Shown in pieces: positions 3,985 through 8,030 of a stretch of 64,000 nt of DNA (position 1 is the first letter of the stretch; every line of letters begins with the position of its first letter). The DNA lies in NCBI GenBank assembly GCA_951828515.1, contig OX639992.1, positions 5,062,217 to 5,126,216 of the forward strand, written 5' to 3'. Below the pieces are notes generated by a model. The model did no database searches and had not been told where the DNA came from. It saw only the letters and a program-made list of their open reading frames with translations. A program made the translations under genes and the position numbers. The DNA is from an uncultured Poribacteria bacterium. Its GTDB lineage: Bacteria; Poribacteria; WGA-4E; WGA-3G.

Positions 3985-4860
3985 CTACGAACCAGCATTA
4001 GATTGAGCTTGACCACTACTTGCTTGGCGTATGTGTTCTGCTTCCCGGACTGCCCGACGCAAGCGTCTTTTCAAACTATTATGGTCGCGGGTTTTCACCG
4101 ATCGCCATACTTCTGTCGAGAGGAACACTCTAATATCCTCTTCTAAAATTCTTTGCCTCACATTGACAGTGTAGGTTATCCAACGTTTTATAATGCCAAA
4201 AGCAAAGTGTCCGGGAAGTAAGTCAATGAAACGATGTCCTTTTAAAAAATCTTGTACTAAGGTTCTGGCGTTCTCAATACTTTGTTCATCAATGTCCAAA
4301 GCTGCTTTATCATATTGTTCCTGAATTCTGCTATCTTGGAAATCCGTTGTCTTCGGTCCTGCAAAAAATTGATCTGGTGCCTTGGGAAACACCTGATAGC
4401 CTGTTTTTGCGCGCTGATGCGCCACATCTAAGACTAATAATTCCTTAAAATTGAGTTCTGTATCTTCAACGATTTCCTTAAAACTACTTGGCAATCTTTC
4501 TAAACTATCTTCTAAAGGGGCACGGTAATGGCGGAACTTTTCTATCGGCTTTTCCTCGATAAGATAGTTTTCACAAGAATGTCGATGAAGCCAAACAATT
4601 CGCTGATGTTGACTTCGAGTGCGCTCTAAAACTTCATAATCACCATCAAGAATGACAACGTAGGAATAGTTGCCTTGTTCAAGAAGCATTGCAAATTTCT
4701 CACATTCTGCTTTTCCTTTTTTTGATATTATCCGGCAATTGTAGTTTTGGAGAACTTCATTATAGAAAGGAATGTCAGTGTGTCCTTCAACATAAACAAG
4801 GATTTCTTGGTAAAAGAGATGTTCCGCAGCTAACCCCGAGGGGGTCCGGGAAAGTAACAT
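3985..4860 (-). CDS. ariB: DUF4435/TOPRIM protein, PARIS AriB-like effector
   Basis: This 291-residue protein has TOPRIM hallmarks. A Glu follows a hydrophobic strand (ILVYVEGHTD, E25), and an Asp-x-Asp follows another (VVILDGDYE, D72 and D74), with a further acidic motif SCENYLIEE near 95-103. That layout is the DUF4435 family, the effector AriB of the PARIS antiphage system. In characterised PARIS systems AriB is held by the AriA ATPase, released when a phage anti-restriction protein is sensed, and cleaves host tRNA. The gene begins on the last base of the upstream ATPase stop codon (TAATG), which indicates coupled translation. Assignment rests on motifs and the gene pair. The phage trigger is not predictable. 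Confidence 0.75.
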   Translation of the reverse strand: MLLSRTPSGLAAEHLFYQEILVYVEGHTDIPFYNEVLQNYNCRIISKKGKAECEKFAMLLEQGNYSYVVILDGDYEVLERTRSQHQRIVWLHRHSCENYLIEEKPIEKFRHYRAPLEDSLERLPSSFKEIVEDTELNFKELLVLDVAHQRAKTGYQVFPKAPDQFFAGPKTTDFQDSRIQEQYDKAALDIDEQSIENARTLVQDFLKGHRFIDLLPGHFAFGIIKRWITYTVNVRQRILEEDIRVFLSTEVWRSVKTRDHNSLKRRLRRAVREAEHIRQASSGQAQSNAGS

Positions 4861-6158
4861 TAACTATCTCTCCCCAAATCTATCACTTTATCTTGGAAAC
4901 TTCCAACAATATCGGGAGAGTGTGTTGCGACGATTACTTGCATCTGTCCACCGAGCGTCACTAAAGATTTTAAAAGTTTTTCTTGCCAAGTTACATGAAG
5001 CGACAATTCAGGTTCATCGGCGACATAAACCACAGGTTTTTCAACCCGAAGCAGGACTTCGGTGAGGAAAATTAGAATTTGTTTCTCCCCTGATGAGAGA
5101 AGTCGTGGATGTATGTCCGCCGGCGAAGAAGTTTCGATTTTTAAATGTCCTCTCTCATCGAACTTAATTGCCTTGTTACTCAAAAATGAGTTAACGATTT
5201 CTTCATAACGGCGTAAAGAGGCGAAAATATCTTCTTTATCTTTTTCAAGTTTCTTGGCATATTCCACCATAGCTTTCGTTCGTCCGATAAGTGGAATTAC
5301 AAAGATGTCTTCAAATTCCGCAGGAATATCTTTTCCTTCATGAATCCGGACAAATACTTGTTCTGCAACAGCTAACGCAGCAAAATGATCGTCAATTCTG
5401 TTCTGCATTACTTCGTCTAAAAACCCAGCATCCTCAAAAGCATCCAATAATTGATCTTTTTCTATTTCCGTTGGCAATGAGTGAAAAATTGAATTACGAA
5501 TTGACTTAAGTTGGTCATGTTCTTTGCTATAAAGTATCATCGACAAGACTTGATGTTCAAACTCCCTATAACGTTCAGAGAGTCGGGCGTTTAAGATGGA
5601 ATGATAGCGAGAAATATCTTCTAACAATTCCTCAAGGCGTAAGTCTATTAATTCCAAAGGTTCTTTTCTTGTATACCTTTCTTCCTCATCTTCTCTTACA
5701 GGTAAACGACGGCTTACGGGGAGCCAAACCAGAGGAACCAAAGGAGTTGATTCGCCATCAATTTCGTCTGATAACATCTGACTGATAACGTTTTCTTTTT
5801 CATAAAAATAGGATCGAGGCGGCCGGATGGACCTTCGGCGAGAAAAAATATCTATAGGAGCACTGTATTCTCTCTGTCCTACCTTGAGTATCAAAGATTC
5901 ATCCGTAATATCAACCTTAATCGTTCGGACAGAACTACCTTTAAAGCCTCTCAATCCGATCTTTGCTTGCTCAAAGTTAACGTTTAAGACACTTCGTAGA
6001 TCGCCTGATAAGATAGAATGGAGGAGATTCAAAATAGTGGTTTTGCCAGAACCGTTCGGACCTATCAGTATATTCACATCGTTGTTAAAAGTTAGGTCAA
6101 TATCTCGATAACCCCACAAATTAGTTATCTTCAGAGACTCTATAAAATAGTTGTGCAC
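4860..6158 (-). CDS. ariA: AAA15/ABC-type ATPase, PARIS AriA-like
   Basis: This 432-residue SMC/OLD-like ATPase has a Walker A GPNGSGKTT (33-41), a central helical region (about 150-330), a signature LSSGEKQ (354-360), Walker B VVYVADEPE (376-384) and a switch His in VATHSPDI (about 410-417). It is the upstream partner of the DUF4435 gene, overlapping it by one base. The combination is that of PARIS AriA, which oligomerises and stores AriB. OLD-type nucleases carry the TOPRIM in the same chain, whereas here it is separate, which favours PARIS. A candidate promoter lies at 6232-6260. Alternative: another ATPase/TOPRIM defence pair. Confidence 0.75.
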   Translation of the reverse strand: MHNYFIESLKITNLWGYRDIDLTFNNDVNILIGPNGSGKTTILNLLHSILSGDLRSVLNVNFEQAKIGLRGFKGSSVRTIKVDITDESLILKVGQREYSAPIDIFSRRRSIRPPRSYFYEKENVISQMLSDEIDGESTPLVPLVWLPVSRRLPVREDEEERYTRKEPLELIDLRLEELLEDISRYHSILNARLSERYREFEHQVLSMILYSKEHDQLKSIRNSIFHSLPTEIEKDQLLDAFEDAGFLDEVMQNRIDDHFAALAVAEQVFVRIHEGKDIPAEFEDIFVIPLIGRTKAMVEYAKKLEKDKEDIFASLRRYEEIVNSFLSNKAIKFDERGHLKIETSSPADIHPRLLSSGEKQILIFLTEVLLRVEKPVVYVADEPELSLHVTWQEKLLKSLVTLGGQMQVIVATHSPDIVGSFQDKVIDLGRDS

Positions 6159-6231
6159 GATTGGTACCTTCTGTTGACAAAAAACTTTCAGAGAACCTTT
6201 CTAATCCACACCGTTGCGATCAATTGCTAAG

Positions 6232-6260
6232 ATTGTAGCACATTTGACAAGAAAAGACAA
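6232..6260 (-). promoter_or_regulatory. Candidate promoter of the PARIS-like pair
   Basis: On the minus strand, TTGTCT (6260-6255) and TACAAT (6237-6232) are separated by 17 bp, about 75 bp upstream of the ATPase start. The match to the sigma-70 consensus is moderate. Confidence 0.4.
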
Positions 6261-6318
6261 AAAATTAGATTGTAAAGCGAAATCGTGTATCTTGCTATGC
6301 CTGCATTTCGTAAAAATG

Positions 6319-6612
6319 TCATTCAGCATTCAACCGAGTGGATATTTCCAGAAATCCCTGTTCGCTAAATACCAGTTGGAAGATGCCTTGCCGTTCGGGA
6401 CCGTCACACACCATCATTCTGCCTACAGTGTTGAATGCGCCTTCGAGGGTTTCCAACACTTTCCGCTTATACTCGGTATCAAGGTTACCTGCGAGATGTT
6501 CACCTTTTGTGTCAAAGATTAGGACACGGGTTACGCCTGAGATTTCGCTCGTCATTGCCACAAAGTCTGGATAAATGCGTCCGCGTTTCCAGCCTTGTAA
6601 GTAGTACTCACC
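6319..6612 (-). pseudogene. Type III restriction enzyme Res subunit, C-terminal remnant
   Basis: The minus strand reads GEYYLQGWKRGRIYPDFVAM and continues with VLIFDTKGEHLAGNLDTEYK to a stop at 6319. This resembles the C-terminal region of type III Res subunits. About nine-tenths of the gene is missing. Upstream, the reading frame changes abruptly at about 6612 into a piece of the Mod methylase, so a deletion has fused the two subunit genes. No start codon of its own is plausible. Confidence 0.65.
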
Positions 6613-6796
6613 GCAATGCCTTGTTTAACCTCTGATAGAAATCGTTTTATGCGAGGCACATTATTGCCATCTTCACCAAACCATATCCGATTGTCATTCA
6701 CTAATACATCAAATCCTTCTTTACCTCTCCTCCGCTAAAGCCCCTGCCTTTAGGTAGCGGATGTAAGCGGCGTATGGGTTTGTCTTTAAAAAACAC

Positions 6797-6825
6797 TTGA
6801 CATTTCATCAAAAATATCGTATAAT
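6797..6825 (+). promoter_or_regulatory. Perfect sigma-70 promoter inside the IS-like element
   Basis: TTGACA (6797-6802) and TATAAT (6820-6825) are separated by exactly 17 bp. The predicted start near 6832 is the first base of a stable stem, and no protein gene follows. This suggests transcription of a non-coding RNA. Confidence 0.75.
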
Positions 6826-6830
6826 TAACG

Positions 6831-7018
6831 TAACACTTTGGACACCGCTTTGACCCCCAACACTCGTTGGGGAGGTGTCCGCTTCGGTCAAAGGAAGTCA
6901 AAAAGTGTTAAGTGTGATACCACTGAAAACATATACTGGGCAGCTCACGCGTAATTGAGCGAAAGCTTGGATCGGAGCAGAGGTGAAAGTCTGCACGTTG
7001 TATTGCTGCCCCCTTTTT
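6831..7018 (+). ncRNA. Candidate structured RNA with pseudoknot and terminal U-tract
   Basis: Downstream of the consensus promoter the sequence folds strongly. TAACACTTT (6831-6839) pairs with AAAGTGTTA (6902-6910). GGACACC (6840-6846) pairs with GGTGTCC (6874-6880). CCCCAAC (6855-6861) pairs with GTTGGGG (6866-6872). CTTTGAC (6848-6854), inside the GGACACC stem, pairs with GTCAAAG (6887-6893) outside it, forming a pseudoknot. A second domain closes with GGGCAGC (6938-6944) and GCTGCCC (7005-7011), followed by CCTTTTT, and holds GCAGA-loop-TCTGC (6977-6994). It could be an omega-RNA/HEARO-type guide scaffold or a distinct RNA. No Rfam comparison was possible. Confidence 0.6.
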
Positions 7019-7079
7019 CAACTTTTCTCTCCAAAAGGAGAGAGGCAGGCGGGGATAGCCAAGATTTTTCGCCTTGATG

Positions 7080-7214
7080 TGCCGAAAGGGATTTTTCACC
7101 CTTTGGGTAATCGCCTGCGGGTGGAGACAACGTAAGACGGTTGACTCTTTGAGAAAACCGCAAATGTCTACGAAGCCGAGGTTTCCCCTGCCTTTAGGTA
7201 GTGGGTGCTATCAC
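7080..7214 (+). ncRNA. Candidate TnpB omega-RNA-like right-end scaffold
   Basis: The right end of the IS605-like element is rich in nested stems: CCGAAAGGG (7082-7090) with CCCTTTGGG (7099-7107, one mismatch), AGACA (7125-7129) with TGTCT (7165-7169), and CGGTT (7138-7142) with AACCG (7156-7160). It then reads GAAGCC, the CTGCC-TTTA-GGTAG hairpin, and ends TATCAC. TnpB guide RNAs of IS200/IS605 elements end at the right end, with the flanking DNA as guide, and here the flank would be mod-gene sequence from 7215. TnpB itself is absent, so any function would need a nuclease supplied in trans. Confidence 0.45.
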
Positions 7215-8030
7215 TATATCTCCAACATGCACCTCCGGGCGGGTTTACAACTCGACCTGACGGAGTAGTAATCGGATAGTCATACTCTTTTTGATAGGTT
7301 TTAACATCTAACCCACTTGAACTCCAAGGTCCCCGTGAATCATTGTCCGGATTAGAATATCGTTCGTTGTGTTTTTCGGTCCGCGGTAGAAGAATGGGTC
7401 TCCATATTTCTTTGTTTTTTGCATAACATAGCACAAAATCATGGTTATCAGAAAAATACTTAGCATCATTTTGCGGACTAAATTTTTTCTGCCAGATAAT
7501 ATTAGTTACAAAATTCTTAGCCCCAAAAATCTCGTCTGTTAGCATCCGAAGGTGATGTTGTTCATTGTCATCAATAGAAACAAAAATTACGCCATCGTCG
7601 GCAAGCAATTCTTTGAGCAGGTGCAGTCTCGGCCACATCATGCAGAGCCATTTATCGTGTCGTTCCAAATCTTCGTTATCGATGGGTGCATTCTCGGTGA
7701 GCCATTGCTGCATCAACGGGCTGTTTACATTGTCGTTGTAGACCCAGCCTTCGTTGCCGGTGTTGTATGGAGGGTCAATATAGATGCATTTGATACGGTT
7801 GGCATAGCGCGGGAGTAACGCTTTAAGGGCATGTAGATTGTCGCCGTGGATGATGAGGTTGTCGTCTTCATTGGTTGGATTGCAGGAGCGGGTTTCGTCG
7901 GGTTCGAGAGGTCGGTAGGGAACAGTGAGGTGGTGGGCGTAAATGTTTTGTTTTCCTTTGAATTCGAGTGTGGGCATGGGCGGTTCCTTTCAGGTAATCT
8001 GTGCTATTAAAGTCAACTATCTCGTCCTCG

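Follow-up and report, generated by a model that had tools for sequence, protein, structure and literature searches.

The guide RNAs of TnpB are generally regarded as by-products of the tnpB mRNA. Work by Meers in 2023 and by Zedaveinyte in 2024 is said to be relevant to guide RNAs from IS elements that lack tnpB, and the use of such RNAs in trans may well be in print already. The reRNA of ISDra2 comes from the tnpB 3' end together with the right end of the element and extends some 16 nt into the flank; the target of the element serves as its TAM (PMC8612924). A second report states that purified TnpB trims extra 5' sequence of its own mRNA (PMC10278001). Gene-less elements with IS605-type ends (palindrome-associated transposable elements, PATEs) have also been published, and two papers present them as remnants that consist of ends only or have lost their core (PMC3119063, PMC7290912). 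The element described here likewise lacks a transposase gene and has IS605-type palindromic ends; unlike those remnants, it carries a promoter and a covarying RNA core.

The window, a stretch of 64,000 nucleotides, belongs to a sponge-symbiont bacterium of the Poribacteria whose genome is a single contig of 5.85 Mb. At positions 6725-7214 it contains a 490-bp ORF-less element of the IS200/IS605 type; this element and all features described below lie on the + strand unless stated otherwise. When the genome was searched by blastn with 6730-7230, 26 matches were obtained, among them the window itself and two more copies of nearly full length (85% and 82%). Many of the other matches comprise only the left end (query 2-112) or only the right end (377-486), and in several cases a left-only and a right-only match on the same strand are separated by about 1.3 kb. 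Between two such ends we found a 385-aa TnpB with OrfB_IS605 and Cas12f1-like_TNB domains (Pfam). Since its ends are common to TnpB elements, the window element is an ORF-less relative of these. The same genome has 48 matches to PF07282 (TnpB-type) and 6 to Y1 transposase, 5 of the latter above the cut-off.

The boundaries of the element were set by comparison of near-identical copies and by the gene that it splits. One relative has five near-identical copies (L063-L066, L068) that share a block of 483-484 bp between different flanks; the block starts at TTAC or one base earlier and ends at CTATCAC or one base later. In the window, TTAC occupies 6721-6724, directly left of the element, and is the target and presumed TAM; a left-end hairpin (6732-6770, CCGCT...AGCGG with inner CTGCC/GGTAG) was found by direct reading. 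The split gene is a type III methylase (Mod) at 6557-7977 on the minus strand. When 6724 is joined to 7215, a single open methylase frame of 315 codons results, with the junction ...GGACWRYS-KEGFDVLV..., and the piece at 7168-7977 matches MTase_III in PADLOC and N6_N4_Mtase in Pfam. The element is mobile, and it left no target duplication at the methylase site. Its classification as a PATE rests on three features: palindromes near termini related to an autonomous element of its own genome (blastn for the ends, direct reading for the hairpins), a fixed short target without duplication at the joined site (TTAC on the left, CTATCAC on the right), and no transposase gene, as no frame longer than 72 aa lies wholly inside 6725-7214. 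The missing duplication at the joined site and a presumed mobilisation in trans are further features that it has in common with published PATEs.

The methylase frame also stops early after the junction, so the type III locus seems to have decayed independently of the insertion. A fragment at 6319-6561 on the minus strand matches the C-terminal part of a type III restriction enzyme (E 1.2e-05). Adjoining this broken restriction-modification locus is a PARIS-type pair of adjacent minus-strand genes, at 4860-6158 and 3985-4860, which match AriA (AAA_15) and AriB (DUF4435) in PADLOC and Pfam. No tRNA or tmRNA was found in the window.

Within the phylum, the segment 6826-7060 has matches at 49 places, spread over 20 of the 84 genomes searched, and a scan of the genome collection with a pattern for the middle domain described below returned 22 stretches, all from Poribacteria: 20 were copies from the phylum search, one was a further full element and one lacked the right end. 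Neither phages and plasmids (blastn) nor viral contigs (middle-domain pattern) gave a match.

The preliminary description, made from the sequence of the window, had drawn attention to a consensus promoter followed by a structured 188-base segment. The promoter is as described: TTGACA-17-TATAAT at 6797-6825 (-35 box 6797-6802, -10 box 6820-6825) agrees with the consensus at 12 of 12 positions and is the sole such site within 6000-8000. A score of at least 9 of 12 is reached by 37 of 38 PATEs and by all 25 tnpB leaders scored, and in most elements the 5' strand of the leader starts 6-7 nt past the -10 box. The stems of the segment also stand; its extent as a unit does not, as the element spans 6725-7214. 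Likewise, the segment contains no long protein frame, as had been stated, but it is overlapped by short, mechanically called ORFs (32-72 aa).

The 5' leader extends from 6832 to 6915. Its nested stems are P1 (6832-6838/6903-6909, part of the perfect stem AACACTTT/AAAGTGTT at 6832-6839/6902-6909), P2 GGACACC/GGTGTCC (6840-6846/6874-6880), P3 CCCCAAC/GTTGGGG (6855-6861/6866-6872) and P4, a conserved hairpin of five pairs (6881-6885/6894-6898) whose loop contains the 3' strand of the pseudoknot CTTTGAC/GTCAAAG (6848-6854/6887-6893). Folding of the single sequence gives modest support (z -2.46; 2 of 200 shuffles fold as well). When 38 PATEs are aligned, 98.2% of 2005 cells at 53 pairs are paired, 35 of the 53 pairs have changes on both sides, and none of 500 shuffles is as good; slid versions are 36-49% paired, a control over which the nested fold is favoured because it was derived from the same alignment. 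The pseudoknot pairing was assigned manually on the sequence of the window. All 266 of its cells are paired in the 38 PATEs, and 4 of its 7 pairs show compensatory changes. Thus, covariation proves the pseudoknot, and the stems and H-type pseudoknot of the preliminary description are confirmed by covariation among homologues, which it had proposed as a check. An HDV-like nested double pseudoknot was considered and dropped, since the roughly 6 nt between P2 and the pseudoknot 3' strand leave no room for the P4 and catalytic joint of the HDV layout.

The same leader architecture, largely different in sequence, stands at the same distance behind the promoter of tnpB genes of the genus. Across 28 tnpB leaders, 97.3% of the cells of this fold are paired and the pseudoknot has compensatory changes at 5 of its 7 pairs; one of five measures, further pair types, did not rise above the shuffles (469 of 500). 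When 63 leaders are aligned jointly, changes on both sides occur at 27 of 32 pairs and the pseudoknot is 99.8% paired. PATEs and TnpB elements have their left end and promoter in common by blastn and their pseudoknot fold in common by structure. A covariance model of the leader, searched against the 84 genomes of the phylum, has matches in 55 of them, including 38 of 38 of the genus. The genome of the window holds 41 matches. Of these, 34 are followed within 1.5 kb by a PF07282 match in the same orientation, and 3 are the PATEs; the remaining 4 are weak and by eye precede apparently broken tnpB frames or, at L163, another ORF-less element. Conversely, 14 of the 48 PF07282 places have no leader match. 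By eye, the L163 locus (1423500-1424900) combines a fold resembling the leader with a 3' part that is ORF-less but of another type, and it may represent a second kind of PATE. L101, outside the counts, is a divergent tnpB leader with the same pseudoknot layout by eye. The pseudoknot is not a guide scaffold; it belongs to a 5' leader that is also present on the tnpB mRNAs of this transposon group. The leader probably acts on tnpB translation and 5' stability. Our literature search, which left most subscription papers outside its scope, turned up neither a pseudoknotted tnpB leader nor the window element in the titles and abstracts listed.

The leader ends in tandem heptamers, S'1 and S'2 (6903-6915), both of which are complementary to its 5' strand, S. 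Over the 63 leaders, 92.1% of S:S'1 cells and 93.7% of S:S'2 cells are paired, with slid S:S'2 controls at 26.8-42.2%; on the 28 tnpB leaders, S:S'2 reaches 99.0%. As S'1 and S'2 are near copies of each other, their covariation is not independent. S'2 ends 4 nt ahead of the start codon in 27 of 28 tnpB mRNAs and 5 nt ahead of it in the other, and none of the 28 leaders has an SD-like core within 20 nt of the tnpB start. We give about even weight to the model in which the leader is a switch: S would pair with S'1 in an open state and with S'2, which sits at the ribosome-binding position, in a closed state, and these mutually exclusive pairings would expose or hide the ribosome site. In published TnpB cis-regulation, part of the tnpB mRNA likewise regulates the system; there a coding region inhibits the RNP (PMC10278001), whereas here the candidate is a pseudoknot in the 5' leader, for which two strands compete.

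Downstream of the leader in PATEs lies a middle domain, from about 6916 to 7012, which is supported by covariation (changes on both sides at 11 of 24 pairs), has no Rfam family match, and occurs at 52 places in 21 of the 84 phylum genomes. It comprises a closing stem, P5 GGGCAG/CTGCCC (6938-6943/7006-7011), P6 (about 6956-6968, in some copies only) and P7 (6977-6980/6991-6994). Support is weak for a small hairpin on the 5' side of P5, in which 3 pairs were counted (81.5% paired). In 43 distinct aligned elements, truncated copies excepted, the domain sits between leader and right end. Judged by these 43 elements, as against the 52 places, it appears to take the place of tnpB, and it is confidently seen only in ORF-less elements. 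As a conjecture, it may aid RNA stability or the presentation of the guide RNA. A CTCTCC/GGAGAG hairpin (7027-7042; 4 of 5 pairs changed on both sides) lies ahead of the right end.

The right end itself, 7044-7214, is an omegaRNA-like scaffold that ends in CTATCAC and is up to 85% identical to the right ends of TnpB elements in the same genome. A common fold of the last 170 nt is 96.6% paired in 38 PATEs and 95.7% in 25 TnpB elements, a count made without a shuffle control, and in the gene-less elements 17 of 38 pairs have changed on both sides. By direct reading, the scaffold starts inside the coding region in TnpB elements. Its homology to the 3' end of tnpB and the right end together, and its conserved fold, are as in an omegaRNA. 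The presumed guide lies in flanking host DNA at 7215-7230, its position taken by analogy with the ISDra2 reRNA and its length assumed to be about 16 nt. An omega-type guide RNA in a mobile element had been among the candidates of the preliminary description. A conserved pseudoknotted non-coding RNA is indeed present and its omega link can be inferred, but the 188-base segment is not the guide scaffold, which lies downstream at 7044-7214 with the presumed guide beyond 7214.

We are highly confident of the anatomy of the element, that is, its ends, promoter placement, leader, middle domain and right end. We consider it fairly probable that the 188-base segment is the 5' part of a non-coding transcript of a non-autonomous IS200/IS605-type element. 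Equally probable, by analogy with the ISDra2 reRNA and with 5' trimming by TnpB, is that this transcript serves as the precursor of an omegaRNA with which TnpB could be programmed in trans. RNA polymerase would start at about 6832 and produce, in order, a leader cap, the PATE-specific domain, the omegaRNA-like right end and, from the flank, the guide. TnpB from autonomous copies would trim the 5' part and keep the rest, and TnpB with the PATE guide would cut the empty site (TTAC plus guide), so that the gene-less element would be retained. The arrangement resembles the omegaRNA or reRNA of TnpB in ISDra2 and AmaTnpB in that the scaffold overlaps the tnpB 3' end in autonomous relatives, the flank is the presumed guide and the target motif lies directly left of the element. 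It differs from them in that the source is a gene-less element with about 210 nt of structured 5' RNA ahead of the scaffold.

The strongest competitor, which we nevertheless hold to be improbable, is a regulatory RNA complete in itself, with its 3' end at the T run near 7018 and a right end that serves in transposition only. P5 followed by a pyrimidine tract fits such an end, and the two together could end part of the transcripts. TTTTT follows P5 in 12 of 38 copies, and at least 5 T within 8 bases in 16 of 38; the T run therefore varies among copies and there is no conserved terminator at 7010-7018, so that of the closing stem and CCTTTTT noted in the preliminary description the stem is kept and the T run is not. 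The right-end fold, moreover, is kept in gene-less elements, and no target is known. At L166 and L167, loci in relatives, nine consecutive T follow the middle-domain copies, unlike in the other copies, and could form a terminator in that lineage.

IS200/IS605 elements transpose in single-stranded form and have hairpins at their ends, and the present element is mobile, so its folds might work as single-stranded DNA recognised by the transposase. This is very unlikely: the leader lies more than 100 nt inward of the left end, a strong promoter is coupled to it at fixed spacing, and the excess of G.U over A.C cells (133 versus 13) fits an RNA from the + strand. Slightly less probable still is that leader and middle domain are passive, functionless remnants of tnpB elements. 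Gene-less deletion derivatives are known (PMC3119063, PMC7290912), but the middle domain covaries on its own and is not confidently seen outside gene-less elements.

Rfam offers no other identity. The region has no match at gathering thresholds and none that convinces at E<=10, where 7 sub-threshold, chance-like matches to unrelated families appear, and 11 homologous loci have none at E<=1. A degenerate group II intron or IStron is accordingly highly implausible. The GGTGAAA...ACGT motif, which we take to resemble group II domain V and which the preliminary description had remarked upon, finds no Rfam intron hit to back it; its GAAA loop, in 'GGTGAAAGTC', varies in 3 of 37 rows of alignment A5 (GGTCAAA in L034 and L067, GGTAAAA in L061), and by direct reading the GTGYG 5' end is not kept. 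Rfam gave neither a domain V covariance match nor a group I intron core, and both introns were rejected. A HEARO/IscB guide RNA, which the preliminary description had suggested and which is also a structured RNA in an IS element, has a negligible chance of being right, as there is no Rfam match, no IscB and another architecture, the relatives encode TnpB, and the presumed guide side is 3'.

A covarying RNA architecture is kept in gene-less elements, and selection must therefore see the RNA alone. It is possible, although we put it forward with some doubt, that the gene-less transposons of Poribacteria are RNA-only parasites of TnpB, in which a new RNA domain replaces the nuclease gene, a dedicated precursor reprogrammes TnpB in trans, and the leader is a two-state switch that sets TnpB translation across the family. 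If the leader is a switch, it would be an example of a transposon limiting its self-targeting nuclease. As TnpB and the ancestor of Cas12 are related, a natural arrangement with the nuclease in one place and the guide in another would be of evolutionary interest.
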